This document shows, piece by piece, positions 6,532 through 14,736 of a stretch of DNA of 64,000 nt. The DNA lies in the NCBI RefSeq assembly GCF_000814475.1, contig NZ_JSVC01000005.1, positions 62,001-126,000 of the forward strand. Reading direction: 5' to 3'. The notes under the pieces were generated by a model. It ran no database searches, was not told where the DNA came from, and saw only the letters and a program-made list of their open reading frames with translations. The translations under genes were made by a program, and so were the position numbers. The stretch's first letter is position 1. Every line of letters starts with the position of its first letter. Source of the DNA: Flavihumibacter solisilvae. GTDB lineage: Bacteria > Bacteroidota > Bacteroidia > Chitinophagales > Chitinophagaceae.

Positions 6532-7167
6532 ATGTCCAAAGGAAAGAAACCAAAACATATTGCGGTGGCTGGCAATATCGGTGCCGGTAAAACCACGCTC
6601 ACTGAATTGCTAAGCAAACACTATAAATGGATTCCCCAGTTTGAAGATGTCGATCATAATCCCTACCTGAACGATTTCTATGAGGATATGCCCAGGTGGA
6701 GTTTTAACCTGCAGATATTTTTTCTGAACAGCAGGTTGAACCAGATCCTCGATATTCATCGTGGTACAGAGACCGTGATACAGGATCGGACGATTTATGA
6801 AGATGCGCACATTTTTGCTCCCAACCTGCATGAAATGCAATTGATGAGCAAACGTGATTACGACAACTATTTTTTGTTCTTTCAGACCCTGAAAACAATG
6901 GTTCAGCCGCCGGATCTTCTCATTTACCTGCAGGCTTCCGTTCCGACACTTGTCGGCCAGATTCAGAAGCGTGGCAGGGAATATGAAGAGAATATCAGGC
7001 TGGATTACCTTAAGCGCCTGAACGATTTTTACAACAAGTGGATCGCCTCATATAATGAAGGACCGCTTTTGGTAATTGACGTCGACAAGAACAAGTTCGC
7101 AGAAAAGGAAGAAGACCTTGGTGATATCATTCGTAAAGTTGATGCGCAACTGTACGGCCTGTTCTGA
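6532..7167 (+). CDS. Deoxynucleoside kinase
   Basis: It phosphorylates deoxynucleosides for the salvage pathway. The 211-residue protein has the P-loop AGNIGAGKTTLTELL near the N-terminus, the family's DRTIYEDAHIFA motif (equivalent to the DRS/ERS substrate motif), and the LID-type basic stretch QKRGREYE. It resembles the bacterial dAdo/dGuo kinase and Drosophila dNK group; the preferred base cannot be read from sequence. It follows trpS closely. Downstream lies a 151-base region full of inverted repeats, not a clear T-run terminator. Confidence 0.9.
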   Translation: MSKGKKPKHIAVAGNIGAGKTTLTELLSKHYKWIPQFEDVDHNPYLNDFYEDMPRWSFNLQIFFLNSRLNQILDIHRGTETVIQDRTIYEDAHIFAPNLHEMQLMSKRDYDNYFLFFQTLKTMVQPPDLLIYLQASVPTLVGQIQKRGREYEENIRLDYLKRLNDFYNKWIASYNEGPLLVIDVDKNKFAEKEEDLGDIIRKVDAQLYGLF

Positions 7168-7197
7168 CCAGATACCGTTAAAGCACTCTACCTCACG

Positions 7198-7298
7198 ATC
7201 TCCCCGTATACTAGCTTAGCATCTGTAAACAGTATGCATGCCGGTTACGGGGAGATTTACGTTATGCCTGCTGCCTGAAGGGGGCGAAAGAAACGTAA
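7198..7298 (+). promoter_or_regulatory. Structured leader of the double-glycine peptide gene
   Basis: ATCTCCCCGTA (7198-7208) and TACGGGGAGAT (7246-7256) are an 11-bp perfect inverted repeat. Inside it GCATCTGT and ACAG-T-ATGC form a second stem with one bulge. TTACGTT (7257-7263) and AACGTAA (7292-7298) form a further 7-bp repeat next to it. No T-run follows the large stem, so simple termination after the kinase gene is doubtful. An RNA leader or operator controlling the peptide gene at 7319 is inferred. Confidence 0.5.
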
Positions 7299-7318
7299 TA
7301 ATTTTAAATCACTGAGTT

Positions 7319-7513
7319 ATGGAATCGTGTTGCGTAGACCAAAAAGCTTTGTTTGTTCAATTAACAGAGGTTGAAATGCAGGACATAAATGGTGGTGAAG
7401 CACAGCCATTTGACCTGTTTACTTATGCCTCTGGTGCGTTACAAAGTATCTGGGAACTCTCAAAGCAGGCGGCTGAATTTCAGTCCTCGCTTTCGTCCAG
7501 TCTCAAAAAGTAA
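7319..7513 (+). CDS. Small secreted peptide precursor with double-glycine leader
   Basis: The 64-residue precursor has a leader ending LTEVEMQDINGG (residues 15-26). This matches the double-glycine pattern with Leu at -12, Glu at -8, Met at -7, Ile at -4 and Gly-Gly at -2/-1. Cleavage after Gly26 would release 38 residues starting EAQPFDLF. That core has no Cys, is near neutral, and its Leu/Ile/Trp/Phe spacing suggests one amphipathic helix with a Ser-rich, Lys-Lys end. The two Cys residues lie in the leader. An HlyD adaptor and a C39-peptidase ABC exporter follow at once, which is the classic bacteriocin or pheromone export arrangement. Whether the product is antimicrobial or a signal is unknown, and no immunity gene is recognised. 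Confidence 0.82.
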   Translation: MESCCVDQKALFVQLTEVEMQDINGGEAQPFDLFTYASGALQSIWELSKQAAEFQSSLSSSLKK

Positions 7514-7520
7514 TTAGTCC

Positions 7521-7543
7521 GGACCGGCAACTGCCGGTCCTTT
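7521..7543 (+). terminator. Hairpin between peptide gene and exporter genes
   Basis: GGACCGGC and GCCGGTCC form a perfect 8-bp stem with an AACT loop and only three T residues after it. It lies 7 bases past the peptide stop codon and 12 bases before the HlyD start. A partial terminator or mRNA-stabilising hairpin here would let the small precursor be made in excess over its exporter. Confidence 0.7.
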
Positions 7544-7555
7544 CAAATTAGCGGA

Positions 7556-8695
7556 ATGGAAGATGTGTTTGAACAACAGCGACTACTATCCGGACAACCG
7601 CCGGCATACATAAGGCGATTGTACATACTCGTTATAATATTGCTTACCGGGGTAATCTTATCTATGTTTTTTATAACAGTTGATGTAGTCGCGATATTTC
7701 CGGCGATTACCCGACAGAATGGGGAAACAATACCAATCCATTCGAGGAAACCCGGAATTATAGATTCGATCTATATCAGCAATGGTGACAGCATATCTGC
7801 CGGTGATAAAATTGCGAAGCTTCACGATGCTGTCTCCCGGAAGACAATACTTACGCTTAGAAAGGCATCTGAAGATCTCAAATTGCAGATCGGACGTTTG
7901 GAAATTCTTGGAGTCTTTGCTTCTCAATATCCCGTTACGCCCGGTGAAGTGAACGTTAAGAAAAGCGATAGGCAATACCAATTGTTTATGGCAAACCATT
8001 CTGCGTGGAATGTGAAATTGAAGAAGGCCGAAGCCGATCTGGAACTCACCAGGGTGTTGTGCCACGACAATATTGTCGCTCCTGCTGAGCTGGCTGCAGC
8101 GGAGAGTAAGTTCCAGGAAATTAATACAGCTTTCAAAGCTTTTATCAGCGGGCAGGTTGCGGCCTGGGAAAAAGAGCGGCAATTACTTTCCGAACGTTTA
8201 TGGAAGCTGGAAATGGACATCTTTAACGCAGAGGAAGAATATAAAAGTCATTACATACACTCACCAGTAGCAGGAGTAGTGACCGGGCTGAAACGTCGCG
8301 TGGAAAATGATAACATAGCCATAGAAGATGTTTTTTGTTTTGTATCTCCATTCGATTCTCTCGTCATTGAATCTTATGTTACGCCGTCTGCAATTGCATT
8401 TCTCTCTCCGGGGCAACCGGTATATTATTCTTTCAATATTGCCGGCGCAGATCATTTGAATATAGCACCCGGCAGGATCGTAGTCGTAAGTCCGGTTATG
8501 GAGTGGAATAGCAGCCAGCCGGTTTACCGCGTGTTGTCATCGCCACCGGATAATAATGGTGATGAAATAAAAGATTTCCACCTGGTAGCCGGTGTGACGC
8601 TCAAGTCCCGGTTCCTGGTTACAGAAAGAAAACTGTGGCAGTTGGTAATCGGCCGGTTTCGTCAATACACACAACCAATCCCGGTCATCAAATAG
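7556..8695 (+). CDS. HlyD-family membrane fusion protein (peptide secretion adaptor)
   Basis: This 379-residue periplasmic adaptor links an inner-membrane ABC exporter to an outer-membrane channel. A short cytoplasmic N-terminus is followed by one membrane segment (about 22-46, LYILVIILLTGVILSMFFI). The biotinyl-lipoyl half-motif with SRKPGIIDSIYISNGDSISAGD comes next, then a helical hairpin (about 105-230), the second lipoyl half (HSPVAGVVTGLKR) and a beta-barrel domain. The gene starts 12 bases after the peptide hairpin and ends 7 bases before the exporter. No outer-membrane TolC-like gene is present here, so a channel from elsewhere would be used. Confidence 0.88.
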   Translation: MEDVFEQQRLLSGQPPAYIRRLYILVIILLTGVILSMFFITVDVVAIFPAITRQNGETIPIHSRKPGIIDSIYISNGDSISAGDKIAKLHDAVSRKTILTLRKASEDLKLQIGRLEILGVFASQYPVTPGEVNVKKSDRQYQLFMANHSAWNVKLKKAEADLELTRVLCHDNIVAPAELAAAESKFQEINTAFKAFISGQVAAWEKERQLLSERLWKLEMDIFNAEEEYKSHYIHSPVAGVVTGLKRRVENDNIAIEDVFCFVSPFDSLVIESYVTPSAIAFLSPGQPVYYSFNIAGADHLNIAPGRIVVVSPVMEWNSSQPVYRVLSSPPDNNGDEIKDFHLVAGVTLKSRFLVTERKLWQLVIGRFRQYTQPIPVIK

Positions 8696-8702
8696 AGTTT
8701 AA

Positions 8703-10826
8703 ATGGCAAGAGTCAGGGCAGTCAGACAACAGGATGGTTCTGACTGTGGACCAGCATGCCTGGCATGTATACTCGGATTTTATGGATTCAGAATCCCTGT
8801 GTCAAGGGTAAGGCGCCATACATGGACTACGGCTACCGGAACAAGTATTTCGGGTCTGGTACGGGCAGCTGGGATCTTTGGGTTGACAGGAAAGGCAGTG
8901 AAAGGCAGTCCTGAAGCTTTAATGTCGATGACGGTGCCGGCTATTGCCCACATCCGGAGGAGCGACAATAGCAATCATTTCGTGGTTATAGTGAAATCAG
9001 GGCGTAAAGAAATTAAGTATATGGATCCGGCGTCCGGCAGGTTTCATTTTGTGAGAAAAGAAATTTTTGCAGAAATCTGGACTGGAATCCTCGTCATGTT
9101 TTCTCCTTCTGTTGATTTCCGCGAGGGAGATGAACGATTGCCGGTTTCCAGGATCTGGTATAGTTTGATCCTTCAACAGAAAAGTAATCTTTTGCTGATG
9201 ATGGCAGGTGCACTGTTATATTCAACAGTGGGATTTTCGACGGTCATTTATGTACAGAAATTATTTGACCTGGTTATCGGGAACGCTGATTTTCATCTGT
9301 TGCATATTTCAGGGTTTGTCATGATCGTAGTCCTGATATTGCAGGCATTTATTGGTTTGATCCGTAATATGCTCGGCGTGTATGTTGGAAAGGTTCTGGA
9401 CACCAGGCTGTTTGCCGCCTGTTTCAGGAAGTTAACTGCCATGCCGCAACAAGTATTTGAGAGTTTCAGAACTGGTGACCTGCTAAACAGGATTGGCGAT
9501 GCGATGAAGATCCGTATTGCGTTGAATGAGTTCCTGGTGAATATACTGCTGAATTTATCCATCGTTTTATTCAGTATTGCCGGATGCCTTTTTTATAACT
9601 GGAAACTTGCCCTTATTGTTATCTCCATGTTACCGGTTTTTATTCTGCTGTATGCAATAAGCAGCATCACTAACCGAAAGCTGCTTGTAAAACAGTTGGC
9701 GGCCTCGGCAAAACTCGAGTCGGACATCACAGAAAGCCTGCACAACATGCATACTATTCGCTCGCTGAACCTCGGAAATATTTTTGCTGACAGGGTTAAT
9801 GAGAGCTTTTTCCGGTTCCTGCAATTGACCGGTGTTTCAAACAGGTTTAATCTCCTTATTTCTGCCATAGCTGATTTCGCCAATAAAGTCTCGTTAGTCA
9901 TAATACTGTGGTGTGGGGCATACCTTGTAATGATTCAGGATCTTACAGCAGGAGAACTGCTTTCTTTTTACACATTGGCAGGTATGCTGGCCAGTCCTTT
10001 CGTTATGCTTGTCAGCTCCGGCAGGATTATCCAGGATGCAAGAGTTGCAACTGAAAGACTATTTGCAGCCGTGGAAGATGGTAATGAGCAAGAGGAAACA
10101 ATTGCGATGACACCGGAATTGGTTGACGATATCAGGTTTTCTGATGTTGTTTTCCGGTATGGTGCGGGAAAACCTGTATTTGATCATTTGAATTTAATTT
10201 TGAGGAAGGGCGAGTGTACTGGCATTACCGGTATGAGTGGTAGTGGCAAGTCAACACTGGTCAGTCTCATCATGGGCCTGAATTCTCCTGAAAGCGGGAA
10301 CATTTATATAGGCCCATATCCCATCAGGCATATAGATAAAAGTAGTATCCGGTCTGTGGTAGGAATAGTACCACAAAAGATTGAGCTTTTCTCAGGCAGC
10401 ATACTTGAAAACATTACCCTGGGAGATCCGGATCCCGATCCTGCACTTGTGATCAGGATTTGCTGTCTCCTGGGCGCTTCGGATTTTATCGAATCATTTC
10501 CTTCGGGCTTTATGCACCAGGTAGGTGAGGGTGGTGCAAACCTTTCCGGAGGCCAGCGTCAACTTATTTCTATTGCCAGGACTTTATACCGCGACCCACA
10601 GATCGTGATCTTTGATGAAGCCACATCGAACCTTGACAATAAAACAGGCAAAAGAATCCAGGACCTGATCAGTCATCTCCGGTCAATAGGAAAAACGGTT
10701 ATTGTCATTGCTCACAGGCACGATATTCTGCAGTATTGTGATCGTATTCATGTGATCAGGGAAGGGAAGTTATCGGCATCCGGCGATTATTACACATTGT
10801 GGGAGAATGATGGCGATCACGGATAA
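8703..10826 (+). CDS. Peptidase-containing ABC transporter (C39 domain)
   Basis: This 707-residue exporter cleaves the double-glycine leader and pumps the peptide out. The N-terminal C39 peptidase has Gln9 (QQDGSDCGPACL), catalytic Cys15, His92 (SNHFVVIV) and Asp108 (YMDPASG), so it looks catalytically intact. Six membrane helices span about 155-430. The ATPase domain has Walker A GMSGSGKST, signature LSGGQRQ, Walker B IVIFDEATS and the switch His in IVIAHRHD. It is translated just after the HlyD gene. Its last ten bases overlap the convergent DUF922 gene. Confidence 0.93.
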   Translation: MARVRAVRQQDGSDCGPACLACILGFYGFRIPVSRVRRHTWTTATGTSISGLVRAAGIFGLTGKAVKGSPEALMSMTVPAIAHIRRSDNSNHFVVIVKSGRKEIKYMDPASGRFHFVRKEIFAEIWTGILVMFSPSVDFREGDERLPVSRIWYSLILQQKSNLLLMMAGALLYSTVGFSTVIYVQKLFDLVIGNADFHLLHISGFVMIVVLILQAFIGLIRNMLGVYVGKVLDTRLFAACFRKLTAMPQQVFESFRTGDLLNRIGDAMKIRIALNEFLVNILLNLSIVLFSIAGCLFYNWKLALIVISMLPVFILLYAISSITNRKLLVKQLAASAKLESDITESLHNMHTIRSLNLGNIFADRVNESFFRFLQLTGVSNRFNLLISAIADFANKVSLVIILWCGAYLVMIQDLTAGELLSFYTLAGMLASPFVMLVSSGRIIQDARVATERLFAAVEDGNEQEETIAMTPELVDDIRFSDVVFRYGAGKPVFDHLNLILRKGECTGITGMSGSGKSTLVSLIMGLNSPESGNIYIGPYPIRHIDKSSIRSVVGIVPQKIELFSGSILENITLGDPDPDPALVIRICCLLGASDFIESFPSGFMHQVGEGGANLSGGQRQLISIARTLYRDPQIVIFDEATSNLDNKTGKRIQDLISHLRSIGKTVIVIAHRHDILQYCDRIHVIREGKLSASGDYYTLWENDGDHG

Positions 10827-11374
10827 GCTGCGAATTTTGAAAGTGATTTTAATTCTTCTTCAATCTTTTCCTGCCAGATCAGTTGTTGTGATGCATCTCT
10901 CGAATAGTTTGTTTCCTTGTCATACTGCTGCTGAAAAGCAGCCTGTTGGCTACCGATTTTCTGGTATATGTCCATTACATCACGATCAACTGAGCCTTCT
11001 GAGAAGCGATATTCAGACAGTGCTTTGTGAAGTTTTCGGGTGAACAATTGCGATATATCAAAATGTCCCTGTTCATGAGCAAGAATACGGACAGATTTCA
11101 CTTTTGTCCATGATTTTTCCGGATAAAATACGCATTGCAGGTTATAGGTAAGGGCTTTGTTGTCGTAGCCGAAACTAATCAGGATGGAAGTGCTTGTGAG
11201 GGCTGCATTCGGGGCACTCGCAACCGGTTGACCTTTAAAGTCGCCCCACTGCAATTGGCGTCGCTGTCGCCAATTGATACTTTCTTTTTCCGCTGCACCA
11301 GGGTCTGCATTTGGGTGCGCAGATGGGATAAGCAGAAAACTCTGGATAATTAGCAGGTAGCCAACAATAAACAT
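10817..11374 (-). CDS. DUF922-type putative secreted Zn-dependent protease
   Basis: The protein carries LAHEQGHFDIS, an HExxH zinc motif, in the context typical of DUF922. An N-terminal hydrophobic segment (FIVGYLLIIQSFLLIPSA) suggests a signal peptide, so it should act in the periplasm or at the membrane. The longer frame opens with TTG at 11395; the ATG at 11374 is preferred because it begins directly at the signal peptide, giving 185 residues. It faces the exporter gene and overlaps it by ten bases. Whether it acts on the exported peptide or is merely adjacent cannot be told from sequence. Confidence 0.75.
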   Translation of the reverse strand: MFIVGYLLIIQSFLLIPSAHPNADPGAAEKESINWRQRRQLQWGDFKGQPVASAPNAALTSTSILISFGYDNKALTYNLQCVFYPEKSWTKVKSVRILAHEQGHFDISQLFTRKLHKALSEYRFSEGSVDRDVMDIYQKIGSQQAAFQQQYDKETNYSRDASQQLIWQEKIEEELKSLSKFAAYP

Positions 11375-11433
11375 AGGGGAATATTTACTGTACAAAGATG
11401 ATGGTTAGTCCATTTTGCTTTATGCAAAGTATT

Positions 11434-11506: not shown

Positions 11507-13117
11507 CTATTTTACAGCAACAGGCGCTGCAGCCATAATTTCAGCTGAAACTCCTGAAGCATATTTCTCGAAATTTTTAATGAATTGGCTAGCAAGTTCA
11601 CTGGCTTTCATGTCGTAGGTATTGGTATCCTGCCAAGTTTTCCGCGGGTTCAGAATAGAGGCGGGAACACCGGGACAACTCTGTGGGATGTCCATTCCGA
11701 AAACAGGGTGCCGTTCATACGCAACTCCTTCAAGCTGTCCGTCAAGGGCAGCCGTTATCATTGACCGTGTAAACGCAAGTTTTATCCTGCTTCCGGTGCC
11801 ATAAGGACCGCCGGTCCAACCGGTATTAATGAGCCATACCTTGACGTTATGGCGGCGCATTTTTTCCCCCAGCATTTCTGCATACTTGCCTGGATGCAGG
11901 GGCAGGAAAGGCGCACCAAAACAGGCACTGAATGTAGACTTAGGCTCAGTAATGCCTGTTTCTGTTCCTGCAACTTTCGCAGTATACCCGGAAATGAACT
12001 GGTACATGGCCTGTTCCGGCGTCAGGCGGGATATAGGTGGCAGCACGCCATAAGCATCACAGGTCAGGAAGAATACATTCAGCGGCGTATTTCCAATCGC
12101 AGGGTCCAGTGAATTGCTGATATAATCAAGTGGATATGAAACTCTGGTGTTCTCAGTTATTGAGGCATCCTCAAAGTTGATGGTATTCGTACCTGGAAAA
12201 AAGATCGCATTTTCCACCAATGCACCGTGTCTTATGGCATGAAATATCTCAGGTTCCTTTTCTTCTGTAAGATTGATGCATTTGGCATAACAACCTCCTT
12301 CAAAATTGAATACATTATTGTCAGTCCACCCATGTTCATCATCACCAATCAGTTTTCGGTTCGGGTCGGCACTTAATGTGGTTTTCCCGGTACCACTGAG
12401 CCCGAAGAAAAGCGCAGTATCCCCTTCATTCCCCATGTTGGCTGAACAGTGCATACTTAATACCTGGTGCTCGTGGGGCAGAATGAAATTCAGGATGCTG
12501 AATATTCCTTTTTTGAGTTCTCCTGTATAACCCGTTCCTGCAATCAGGATTGTTTTATACTTGAAAGAAATTACGGCGGCATTATGTTGCCTGATGCCAC
12601 AAACCGAAGGGTCAAGCCTTAAACCGGGGGCAGACATGATAGTCCATTCCGGGTGAAAGTTTTCAAGTTCTTCTTCCGTAGGCCTGAGAAACATATTATA
12701 GGCAAACAGGTTGAGCCACGGCTTTTCATTCACAACGCGGATACTCACCCTGTAACGCGGATCTGCACAGGCATAGGCGTCGCGTACCCAGATCTCACTT
12801 CTTTTTGAAAGATAGTCCGTGATACGTTGTTTTATGATGAAGAAGTACTTCTCATCTATCGGGAGGTTAAAATCATTCCAGTGGACCGTATCGGCTGTGA
12901 TCTCATCTTGTACGATGAACTTGTCTTTGGGACTCCTGCCGGTGAATTCGCCCGTGCGGATTAACAGGGCTCCGGAATCACTCAACTCCCCTTCACCGAT
13001 TCGAAGGGTGTCCTGAATTAATTCCTCCGGAGAAAGCTGGTAATGTACTGTGTCAGACGATCTTAGGCCCAGGGTCACCAGCTGCTCTGCTGGTAGCATA
13101 ATAGTAGGAACTGACAT
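11507..13117 (-). CDS. pckA: Phosphoenolpyruvate carboxykinase (ATP)
   Basis: It converts oxaloacetate and ATP to phosphoenolpyruvate, the entry step of gluconeogenesis. The 536-residue length and motifs are standard for the ATP-dependent enzyme: TGEFTGRSPKDKF, the kinase-1a P-loop FGLSGTGKTTLSADP, the metal-binding GDDEHGW and the C-terminal TGWTGGPYGTGSRI. It is monocistronic, with its own promoter (-7 element at 13141-13148) and a strong terminator. Confidence 0.97.
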   Translation of the reverse strand: MSVPTIMLPAEQLVTLGLRSSDTVHYQLSPEELIQDTLRIGEGELSDSGALLIRTGEFTGRSPKDKFIVQDEITADTVHWNDFNLPIDEKYFFIIKQRITDYLSKRSEIWVRDAYACADPRYRVSIRVVNEKPWLNLFAYNMFLRPTEEELENFHPEWTIMSAPGLRLDPSVCGIRQHNAAVISFKYKTILIAGTGYTGELKKGIFSILNFILPHEHQVLSMHCSANMGNEGDTALFFGLSGTGKTTLSADPNRKLIGDDEHGWTDNNVFNFEGGCYAKCINLTEEKEPEIFHAIRHGALVENAIFFPGTNTINFEDASITENTRVSYPLDYISNSLDPAIGNTPLNVFFLTCDAYGVLPPISRLTPEQAMYQFISGYTAKVAGTETGITEPKSTFSACFGAPFLPLHPGKYAEMLGEKMRRHNVKVWLINTGWTGGPYGTGSRIKLAFTRSMITAALDGQLEGVAYERHPVFGMDIPQSCPGVPASILNPRKTWQDTNTYDMKASELASQFIKNFEKYASGVSAEIMAAAPVAVK

Positions 13118-13140
13118 GGTTTAGCAATCGTTTGTTGGCA

Positions 13141-13148
13141 CAAATCTA
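13141..13148 (-). promoter_or_regulatory. -7 promoter element of pckA
   Basis: The minus strand reads TAGATTTG, an exact match to TAnnTTTG, 23 bases before the pckA ATG. No clear TTG -33 element is seen. Confidence 0.6.
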
Positions 13149-13267
13149 GGGGTTGATGGTTATGCGCCCTACTAATGTGTATTCAGTACACTATAGATGT
13201 TTTCTAATACTTTTGAAGTAATGTTGAATGATTTCTTGATAGGTTTAGGGATGGTTGAATGCGCTAT

Positions 13268-13287
13268 AAACTAACGTTTGTTAGTTT
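13268..13287. promoter_or_regulatory. 20-bp palindromic operator-like site
   Basis: AAACTAAC and GTTAGTTT are a perfect 8-bp inverted repeat around GTTT. The size and symmetry resemble TetR-family operators, but no such regulator is adjacent. The site is 119 bases upstream of the pckA -7 element and 150 bases from pepP, and no T-run follows it. Confidence 0.55.
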
Positions 13288-13418
13288 GAATGCTTCCTAT
13301 ATTTTTAATTTTGAACAATATTAAAATTTGACTTCGTTTTTGGCCCCGGCGGAGCTGAAATTGCCAGCCGATGTTATAACATTGCGTCCATGTTTCCCGG
13401 ATTGATGAAAATCATACC

Positions 13419-13426
13419 TATTTTAG
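13419..13426 (+). promoter_or_regulatory. -7 promoter element of pepP
   Basis: TATTTTAG matches TAnnTTTG at seven of eight positions, 17 bases before the pepP ATG. Confidence 0.4.
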
Positions 13427-13443
13427 CCGACTAATATTGGAAC

Positions 13444-14736
13444 ATGAAATACCAGCCACTGGATTCCCGGATGTTTATCGAAAACCGCAAACGGTTCGTT
13501 AAGGAAATGGATCCGCAGTCCATCGCCATTTTCAACAGTAACGATGAACTTCCGACTAACGGTGATGCGCTATATAAGTTCAAGCAGAATTCAGATCTGT
13601 TCTGGCTTACAGGAATTGAGCAGGAAGACTCCATGCTTATACTCTTCCCGGCAAGCCCGGATCCAAAATACCGCGAAGTGCTGGTTCTCGTCCGTCCCAA
13701 TGAATTAAAGGAAAAGTGGGATGGAAGAAGGCTGAGGCGAAATGAAGCCACTGCAATTTCCGGCATAGACAGTATTGTGTGGCTTGACAGCCTGGATGGC
13801 CTGTTGCAGCCGATGATTCACCTGGCCGAAACCATTTACCTGAATACAAATGAAAACGACAGAAAATCTAATAATATAGCGGTCAGGGATTATCGTTACG
13901 CTGAAGAAATGCGCAAACGTTACCCACTACATCAGTATAAAAGAAGTGCACGCATCCTCAAGTCATTAAGGTCAATAAAGTCGCCCCTGGAAGTTAAAGT
14001 GATGCAGGAAGCGATCGACATAACCGAAAAGACATTCCGCCGCCTGCTTTCGTTTATTCGTCCCGGTGTAATGGAGTACGAGATCGAGGCAGAAATCTGG
14101 CATGAATTCCTGCGTAACCGCGCCACGGGCCCGGCTTATGGCAGCATTATCGCAAGCGGTGACCGCGCCAGGATACTGCATTACGTGAGCAACAATGAGG
14201 AATGTAAAGCCGGGGAACTCGTGCTAATGGATTTCGGGGCTGAATATGGTGGATATTGTGCAGACCTTACCCGTACGGTACCCGTGAGTGGTTCATTCAC
14301 CAAGCGTCAGAAAGATGTGTATAATGCCTGCCTTGCCATACATACATACGCAAAGGGAATACTTAAACCTGGTATTACCATTGTGGATTATACTGAAAAA
14401 GTAGGCGGTGAGGCCACCCGCCAGTTTCAAAAACTGGGGCTGTTAAAAAAAGAGGACATGAAAAATGAGGATCCGGAAAACAGGGCTTACCGCAAATATC
14501 TCTACCATGGCATATCCCATCACCTGGGCATCGATGTACATGACCTGGGAACCCGCACAGAACCGATAAAAGCCGGCATGGTGTTCACAATCGAGCCGGG
14601 AATATATATTGAAGAAGAAGAAATGGGGATCCGGATTGAGAACAATGTTTGGATCACAAAAACCGGGAATAAGGACCTGATGGCCAACATTCCCATTAAA
14701 GCCGAAGAAATAGAAGCGCTGATGAAGAAAAAATAA
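13444..14736 (+). CDS. pepP: Xaa-Pro aminopeptidase (aminopeptidase P)
   Basis: This M24-family peptidase removes N-terminal residues ahead of proline. The 430-residue protein has an N-terminal domain (about 1-170, with DLFWLTGIEQEDSMLILFP) and a C-terminal pita-bread domain. The metal ligands are visible: Asp in VLMDFGAEYGGYCADLTRT (two Asp), His in GISHHLGIDVHD, and Glu in FTIEPGIYIE and GIRIENN. No signal peptide is present, so it should be cytoplasmic. pssA follows after 43 bases in the same direction. Confidence 0.94.
   Translation: MKYQPLDSRMFIENRKRFVKEMDPQSIAIFNSNDELPTNGDALYKFKQNSDLFWLTGIEQEDSMLILFPASPDPKYREVLVLVRPNELKEKWDGRRLRRNEATAISGIDSIVWLDSLDGLLQPMIHLAETIYLNTNENDRKSNNIAVRDYRYAEEMRKRYPLHQYKRSARILKSLRSIKSPLEVKVMQEAIDITEKTFRRLLSFIRPGVMEYEIEAEIWHEFLRNRATGPAYGSIIASGDRARILHYVSNNEECKAGELVLMDFGAEYGGYCADLTRTVPVSGSFTKRQKDVYNACLAIHTYAKGILKPGITIVDYTEKVGGEATRQFQKLGLLKKEDMKNEDPENRAYRKYLYHGISHHLGIDVHDLGTRTEPIKAGMVFTIEPGIYIEEEEMGIRIENNVWITKTGNKDLMANIPIKAEEIEALMKKK

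Follow-up and report, generated by a model that had tools for sequence, protein, structure and literature searches.

A dedicated double-glycine peptide export locus in Flavihumibacter solisilvae, most likely a class-IIb-like bacteriocin cassette reduced to its B peptide

The window analysed in this study is a stretch of 64,000 nucleotides from Flavihumibacter solisilvae (contig NZ_JSVC01000005.1, positions 62,001 to 126,000), and it harbors a compact locus of three genes on the same (+) strand: a 64-residue precursor with a double-glycine (GG) leader peptide (7319-7513), an HlyD-family adaptor and a C39-peptidase ABC exporter, whose open frames amount to about 3.5 kb in all (Table 1). The evidence for a dedicated locus that exports a GG-leader peptide is good, and comparison with relatives suggests that the precursor most probably represents the B member of a class-IIb-like bacteriocin cassette of which only one peptide is left. 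An earlier, sequence-only reading of this DNA had proposed the order of GG precursor, HlyD and intact C39 exporter, and the checks of open reading frames (ORFs), Pfam domains and motifs bore it out. It had also drawn the locus over 7198-11374; the three-gene unit within that span was retained and the tail was not, as a convergent, unrelated DUF922 gene occupies it and the locus ends at 10826. The 5' neighbour of the cassette is a deoxynucleoside kinase gene (dNK, 6532-7167), and beyond the DUF922 gene lies an ORF that by eye resembles phosphoenolpyruvate (PEP) carboxykinase. A scan for a terminator-like site between the precursor and hlyD found none.

Table 1. Features of the export locus and its surroundings, in positions of the window
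Feature	Position	Strand	Remarks
Promoter-like box ACCGTTAAAGCAC...TAGCTTAG	7174..7219	+	Resembles boxes 5' of several related loci; compared by eye, without a statistic
5' leader RNA element	7250..7299	+	GGGA-N-ATGCCY, 5-bp hairpin, AAAGA; 19 nucleotides 5' of the start codon
Precursor leader peptide, 26 residues, INGG end	7319..7396	+	
Core peptide B, 38 residues, with stop codon	7397..7513	+	
Inverted repeat in the precursor/hlyD interval, possible mRNA hairpin	7511..7550	+	Pair I4, 79% complementary
HlyD-family periplasmic adaptor, 379 residues	7556..8695	+	HlyD_3 PF13437, E 3.6e-9
C39-peptidase ABC exporter, 707 residues	8703..10826	+	Peptidase_C39 E 7e-28, ABC_membrane 3.2e-39, ABC_tran 2.6e-26
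Convergent gene for a DUF922 protein, outside the export system	10817..11395	-	PF06037

The exporter has the build of a peptidase-containing ABC transporter (PCAT), with an N-terminal C39 domain bearing its Cys/His/Asp, an ABC membrane domain and an ATPase domain. In alignment it retains Cys15, His92 and Asp108 of the C39 domain as well as Walker A, the Q-loop, LSGGQ, Walker B and the H-loop (the outgroup row of this alignment, G036, is without the C39 part), and against TIGR01193 it reached E 3.9e-122 with 409 bits, below the cut-off of 524. As it is the sole C39 match of the genome at E<=1e-3, the peptide and the exporter are probably dedicated to each other; a scan of genome contigs with the exporter as query returned one distant match. 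Stretches encoding outer-membrane efflux proteins of the TolC type number 44 in the genome.

The precursor begins with ATG and has its GG at residues 25-26, with two Cys at residues 4 and 5 of the leader peptide. Its core, EAQPFDLF...SLKK, contains no Cys and has a balance of K/R minus D/E of -1, in agreement with the earlier description of a 38-residue, near-neutral peptide. Conserved hydrophobic leader positions, the GG end, the adjacent C39 exporter and retention in relatives together mark it as a GG-leader exported peptide. As to the single amphipathic helix that had been proposed for the core, AlphaFold2 (12 rows) modelled one helix over residues 30-57 with a mean pLDDT of 59.6, and the hydrophobic moment was matched by 86 of 2000 shuffles; one predicted helix is therefore kept, and its amphipathic character is weakly supported. 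The NCBIfam matches of the precursor were weak, below cut-off and confined to the leader peptide, and the bacteriocin, ComC and leader models all stayed below cut-off. The survey of neighbours in relatives, which the sequence-only reading had also suggested, revealed a partner peptide and a CPBP protease. A search of the PDB with the profile of B described below returned two Dps proteins at E about 0.7, which we judged to be chance.

Used alone as a query, the window precursor matched in five of 59 genomes, its own included (E<=0.05), and a plasmid search with one B precursor as query gave zero matches. Further relatives were gathered by reading the neighbours of homologous exporters, and a profile (A2) was built from eight precursors, those of the window's genome (G000) and of G001, G004, G005, G006, G009, G012 and G013. 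At E<=0.01 this profile found B in 11 of the 15 genomes of the genus, own included. Eight of these matches are full, covering 62 or more of the 63 positions, and they come from the very sequences that built the profile; the remaining ones span positions 17-63 (G010), 43-63 (G008, a decayed locus) and 1-45 (G003). In a draw of 394 genomes of the family, 11 genomes matched at E<=1e-4, four of them outside the genus (G181, G250, G419 and G365, the last over positions 1-44 only). Among 12 aligned precursors Q55, S57 and K64 are invariant and a tail of the form [YF]Q.SLPxNLKK is common, which the window's B shares only in part (FQSSLSSSLKK against YQxSLPxNLKK). The sequence-only reading had staked its precursor call on conservation of the small gene beside the exporter, and this is what we observed: homologous precursors adjoin homologous exporters in other genomes, which rules out an orphan precursor. 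It was also seen that the GG-like small ORFs near the exporters of this clade in G003, G016, G017 and G020 (L040, L043, L045 and L046) are very different, so that exporters of this family would appear to serve diverse peptides.

Away from the dNK site, B with an adjacent exporter occurs at seven loci (G004, G005, G006, G181, G250, G365 and G419), and all seven encode a CPBP/CAAX membrane protease of about 160 residues beside B. Those of G004, G005, G006, G181, G250 and G365 score above the Pfam cut-off of PF02517, and that of G419, an open frame, matches the profile of the other CPBPs at E 4.3e-32. CPBP proteases are an immunity type for class II bacteriocins. A second peptide, A, is encoded 5' of B in six of the seven loci, the exception being G250, where the exporter is closely followed, in convergent orientation, by genes for a LuxR-type response regulator and a histidine-kinase-like protein (L068, reverse-strand orientation, 12247-13682). 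A and B are both present in G001, G004, G005, G006, G010, G181, G365 and G419; the A of G365 ends in GS instead of GG, and in G010 both peptides and a PF02517 protein are present with no exporter seen beside them, as far as the contig end reached there. The motif GxxxG was found in all eight A cores tested (the truncated A of G012 and the A of G005 lay outside this test) and in four of 12 B cores, that of the window not being among them. The A of G006 matched the lactococcin G-beta family weakly (E 1.5e-4, below cut-off), a match that we count as partly due to the leader peptide because the window's own leader also scores weakly there. Among G004, G005 and G006, omega was 0.08-0.23 for A, 0.06-0.14 for CPBP, 0.06-0.08 for the ABC gene and 0.27-0.28 for B (two pairs, the third having a dS of 0).

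Since these relatives carry A and CPBP beside B, the assignment of the window's precursor to the B half of a reduced cassette follows as the most likely one, and the idea of an orphan or wholly new class gives way to a two-peptide and CPBP cassette of class-IIb type. The remark that no immunity gene is visible holds for the window itself and not for most relatives, which have CPBP beside B; its absence seems to be peculiar to a single clade. Besides, some related arrangements were observed. A second cluster in G003 (L071, 7349-8494) has an A/B-like GG pair and a PF02517 protein with no exporter among the ORFs of at least 110 residues listed for a 16-kb stretch, and the exporter of this clade in G003 lies on the same contig at another position; a suspected second CPBP-like ORF there (L071:6649-7110) was dropped, having no Pfam match. 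In G004, G005 and G006 (L041, L042 and L044), an ORF of 30 residues resembling a membrane peptide (MKEELSKLTT...LKC) separates B from CPBP and may encode another accessory or immunity peptide.

The dNK gene is present in all 15 genomes of the genus (the G002 copy is partial, at a contig end), and a GG cassette follows it in five: G000, G001, G009, G012 and G013. By eye, a DUF922-like gene directly follows dNK in another five (G002, G003, G007, G010 and G014); G004 and G006 have about 0.9 kb between dNK and PEP carboxykinase without an ORF of at least 100 residues; G005 and G008 have an unrelated operon at this site, and the arrangement in G011 is different. The interval after dNK, 6532-11395 in the window, is variable in the genus, being empty of the cassette, filled by it or filled by another operon. 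In the exporter tree, the exporters of the five dNK-site cassettes group together as a single clade (96/100). A profile search of the gaps of these five loci did not find CPBP; as candidate remnants, G012 offered only a weak match (best domain E 4.3e-4, whole sequence E 0.074, with hydrophobic bias) and G013 none that was convincing. Elsewhere in the window's genome, PF02517 has seven matches with open frames of 257-337 residues. At the dNK site, G001 has an intact peptide A, G012 a truncated one in which GA replaces GG, and G013 one broken by a stop, with the leader RNA still standing 5' of the remains; the genomes G000 and G009 gave no match to A at E<=0.01. In our reading of these sequences, A would have been lost repeatedly in a lineage without CPBP.

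In all, we think it probable, with some reserve, that the product of the locus is an exported peptide of bacteriocin type, class II and IIb-like, which works on its own, its activity being predicted. This assessment draws on homology, gene order, the intact exporter, the genome without a match to A, the locus gaps without CPBP and the covarying leader, as they can be read from the DNA. Several points weigh against it. With a B that lacks a conserved GxxxG and no partner, the window does not have a class IIb pair. Omega was obtained for three relatives in which A and CPBP are still present, and not for the window's lineage, and the B copy of G008 has decayed. The direction, loss and not gain, would follow from the distribution, several deep forks of the tree being unsettled. 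The plasmid pBACSA02 of Phocaeicola salanitronis has a parallel gene order (two GG peptides, CAAX protease, HlyD, C39 ABC and TolC), but with both of its GG peptides the two core profiles gave no match at E<=1, so that it is the gene order that is shared. Again, G000 is 94-96% identical to the other four dNK-site loci in dNK, 72-78% in PEP carboxykinase and 58-64% in DUF922, and between dNK-site loci with dNK at 94-96% the ABC proteins are 35-42% and the HlyD proteins 25-30% identical; the exporter branches of G000 and G009 measure 1.84 and 3.26 against 0.03-0.71 in the other 14 ingroup members, in a tree that carries the tool's long-branch warning. Such divergence would fit an arms race, but selection that has been relaxed or altered would account for it equally well.

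A rival reading is that the locus is a decaying remnant, with frames still open and a product that no longer matters. The absence or breakage of A in four of the five dNK-site loci, the fate of the G008 copy, the smaller number of shared C-terminal residues in the window core and the long exporter branch would all fit such decay, but three open frames are kept over the whole unit, every catalytic motif is intact despite divergence to about 40% identity, and the leader element still stands directly 5' of B. We consider decay quite unlikely.

A further possibility is that the solitary B is a self-acting or signalling peptide, a pheromone or an agent of autolysis or biofilm, which needs neither partner nor immunity. 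Such a role would suit a locus where neither partner nor immunity gene was found and where the core is near neutral, as well as the long branches of the exporters from two of the three dNK-site loci with B only, and the regulator and kinase genes seen by sequence at the B-only locus of G250. There are precedents in Neisseria autolysis peptides without detectable antimicrobial activity, according to PMC11798529, and in GG peptides reported to enable biofilm in Synechococcus (PMC4997328). Against this, no kinase or regulator gene was recognised by eye beside the window locus or the other four dNK-site loci. The precursor also lacks the marks of a ComC-type pheromone, as model NF033214 gave 21.2 bits (cut-off 50) over residues 12-28 only, and no adjacent two-component system was recognised. 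Moreover, bacteriocins of Bacteroidota can be without immunity genes: according to PMC6671954, Bacteroidetocin producers have no obvious immunity genes and inhibit themselves, so a missing immunity gene is compatible with a bacteriocin. A self-acting or signalling role is a doubtful alternative, with rather more to be said for it than for decay. An elaboration of it appears unlikely too, and slightly more so than the simple form: a new Bacteroidota family of two peptides, protected by CPBP and placed under its own RNA leader, of which one lineage repeatedly lost partner and protection, leaving B alone with a new job in self-directed lysis or signalling.

Whichever the role of B, its gene is preceded by a candidate structured RNA. 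Common to the upstream regions are GGGA-N-ATGCCY, AAAGA and, in between, a hairpin of 5 bp whose sequence varies, and in G000 this leader RNA stands directly 5' of B. In an alignment of six rows, pairing holds in 29 of 30 cells and four of five pairs change on both sides, with slid controls at most 64% paired; the result for the six rows is inflated because those of G013 and G008 were chosen with a pairing filter. A covariance model, R1, matches the window at E 3.4e-8, the genome's only match at E<=1, the window sequence being one of its six rows. Over the 15 genomes of the genus, seven matches fell below 1e-7, namely five model rows (G000, G001, G012, G013 and G008) and two others, G005 and G011; those of G000, G001, G012 and G013 sit at GG cassettes, and the next best (0.016) lies 5' of a GG peptide of G003, at a locus that had already been noticed beforehand. 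When the 394 genomes of the family were searched, R1 gave 10 matches at E<=0.01, a threshold at which about four are expected by chance: seven strong (the six model rows and G011) and three weak. One weak match, that of G117 (E 0.0067), stands 22 nucleotides 5' of a GG peptide, after which come another GG peptide and a C39 ABC gene; the other two, of G081 and G305, are not 5' of GG peptides. All strong matches other than G005 and G011 are model rows, and as both of these precede an unrelated operon, the link of the leader RNA to GG/C39 operons has thin independent support. Judged by covariation, the element is real; it is not exclusive to GG/C39 operons.

With regard to that operon, the leader RNA and a similar promoter-like box were observed before it in G005, G008 and G011 (L099, L100 and L124), with a 470-codon frame first; in G008 a 263-residue ORF and, by eye, an O-antigen-ligase-like ORF follow, and in G011 the likely start of the 470-codon frame, MRKLEFEAQGLIKL, is reminiscent of a GG-peptide leader. 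Rfam gave one match only in the window, a tRNA, the leader having no match at the gathering score, and 13 related loci searched at E<=3 gave four matches, all under gathering scores. Two other approaches were set aside: an exact-motif scan for TGCCC-N-CAAGACGAG in 117 genomes gave six matches against 14 in a reversed control, none of the six before a recognised GG peptide, and a hairpin descriptor found in six of 15 upstream regions (mean of 0.06 in shuffles) was a circular test because the descriptor had been derived from the same regions. The refined descriptor hit 21 distinct places in 1.42 Mb, of which 10 entered alignment A7 and six of these R1; the other 11 look like chance. Furthermore, an inverted repeat GATCTCCCCGTA/TACGGGGAGATT lies at 7197-7208 and 7247-7258, its left arm inside the promoter-like box and its right arm overlapping the leader element, in a region that folds better than shuffles (z -3.46).

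Taking the bacteriocin-type reading as the working model, the locus would make and export one unmodified class-II (IIb-like) peptide. The precursor would be translated behind the structured mRNA leader, the C39 domain would cut after Gly26, and the exporter, together with HlyD and a TolC-type outer-membrane protein encoded elsewhere, would release a 38-residue, presumably helical peptide. B, a member of a family that usually has partner A and CPBP, would act alone here since both are missing, probably through loss and not through gain elsewhere, and most likely it would still be a membrane-acting antagonist of close relatives. The series found in nature, A with B and CPBP, A with B, a dying A with B, and B alone, offers a testable route from a two-peptide toxin to a one-peptide system without recognised immunity. 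Only a small number of class II bacteriocins from this phylum have so far been investigated. The locus also contributes a candidate structured leader RNA found 5' of such operons.

With reference to known systems, the loci of the relatives resemble those of class IIb bacteriocins of Gram-positive bacteria, such as lactococcin G and the plantaricins, in having two adjacent small GG-leader peptides, GxxxG in A, an adjoining CPBP/CAAX protease and a C39 ABC exporter with an accessory protein. They differ from class IIb in the HlyD route, in a B without conserved GxxxG and in near-neutral cores; the window differs further, as it has neither a partner peptide nor an immunity gene. Put against the features of the class, the window shows neither two adjacent precursors, nor GxxxG in both peptides, nor an adjacent immunity protein, and the peptides stay under the curated cut-offs of bacteriocin families, except that the B of G006 passes a generic 15-position leader model (TIGR01847, 15.8 against 15.7 bits). 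Bacteroidetocins, as described in PMC6671954, share with the window the phylum Bacteroidota, a GG leader, a C39 ABC exporter and the lack of an obvious immunity gene; their mature peptides contain two or more Cys, their leaders are of 15-16 residues and their loci have genes for a transmembrane protein and mostly a thiol oxidoreductase, whereas the window has a core without Cys, a leader of 26 residues and the neighbours dNK, HlyD, ABC and DUF922. The PCAT-type exporters 4ry2 ('ABC-type bacteriocin transporter', E 3.9e-111) and ComA 8hf4 (E 2.6e-90) are full-length sequence relatives, and the window exporter differs from them in being encoded beside an HlyD adaptor. Among the matches listed from the open-licence PMC literature, no title concerned a Bacteroidota two-peptide family with CAAX proteases or this leader RNA, large candidate-RNA lists (e.g. 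PMC8040213) standing outside the comparison. GG/HlyD/C39 clusters in Bacteroides had been noted in 2015 (PMC4573289), and IIBacFinder predicts class II unmodified GG-leader peptides across Bacteroidota in large numbers, according to a commentary (PMC12648078). As far as seen, the kind of system is already known and the variant is new, members of the IIBacFinder catalogue standing outside this comparison. Among plasmids, the five best matches of the exporter belong to Bacteroidota or its genera, and a search of 405 ORFs from four plasmid stretches revealed, on a Bacteroides uniformis plasmid, an A-like core (E 7.4e-6) and a B-like core (E 0.0024).

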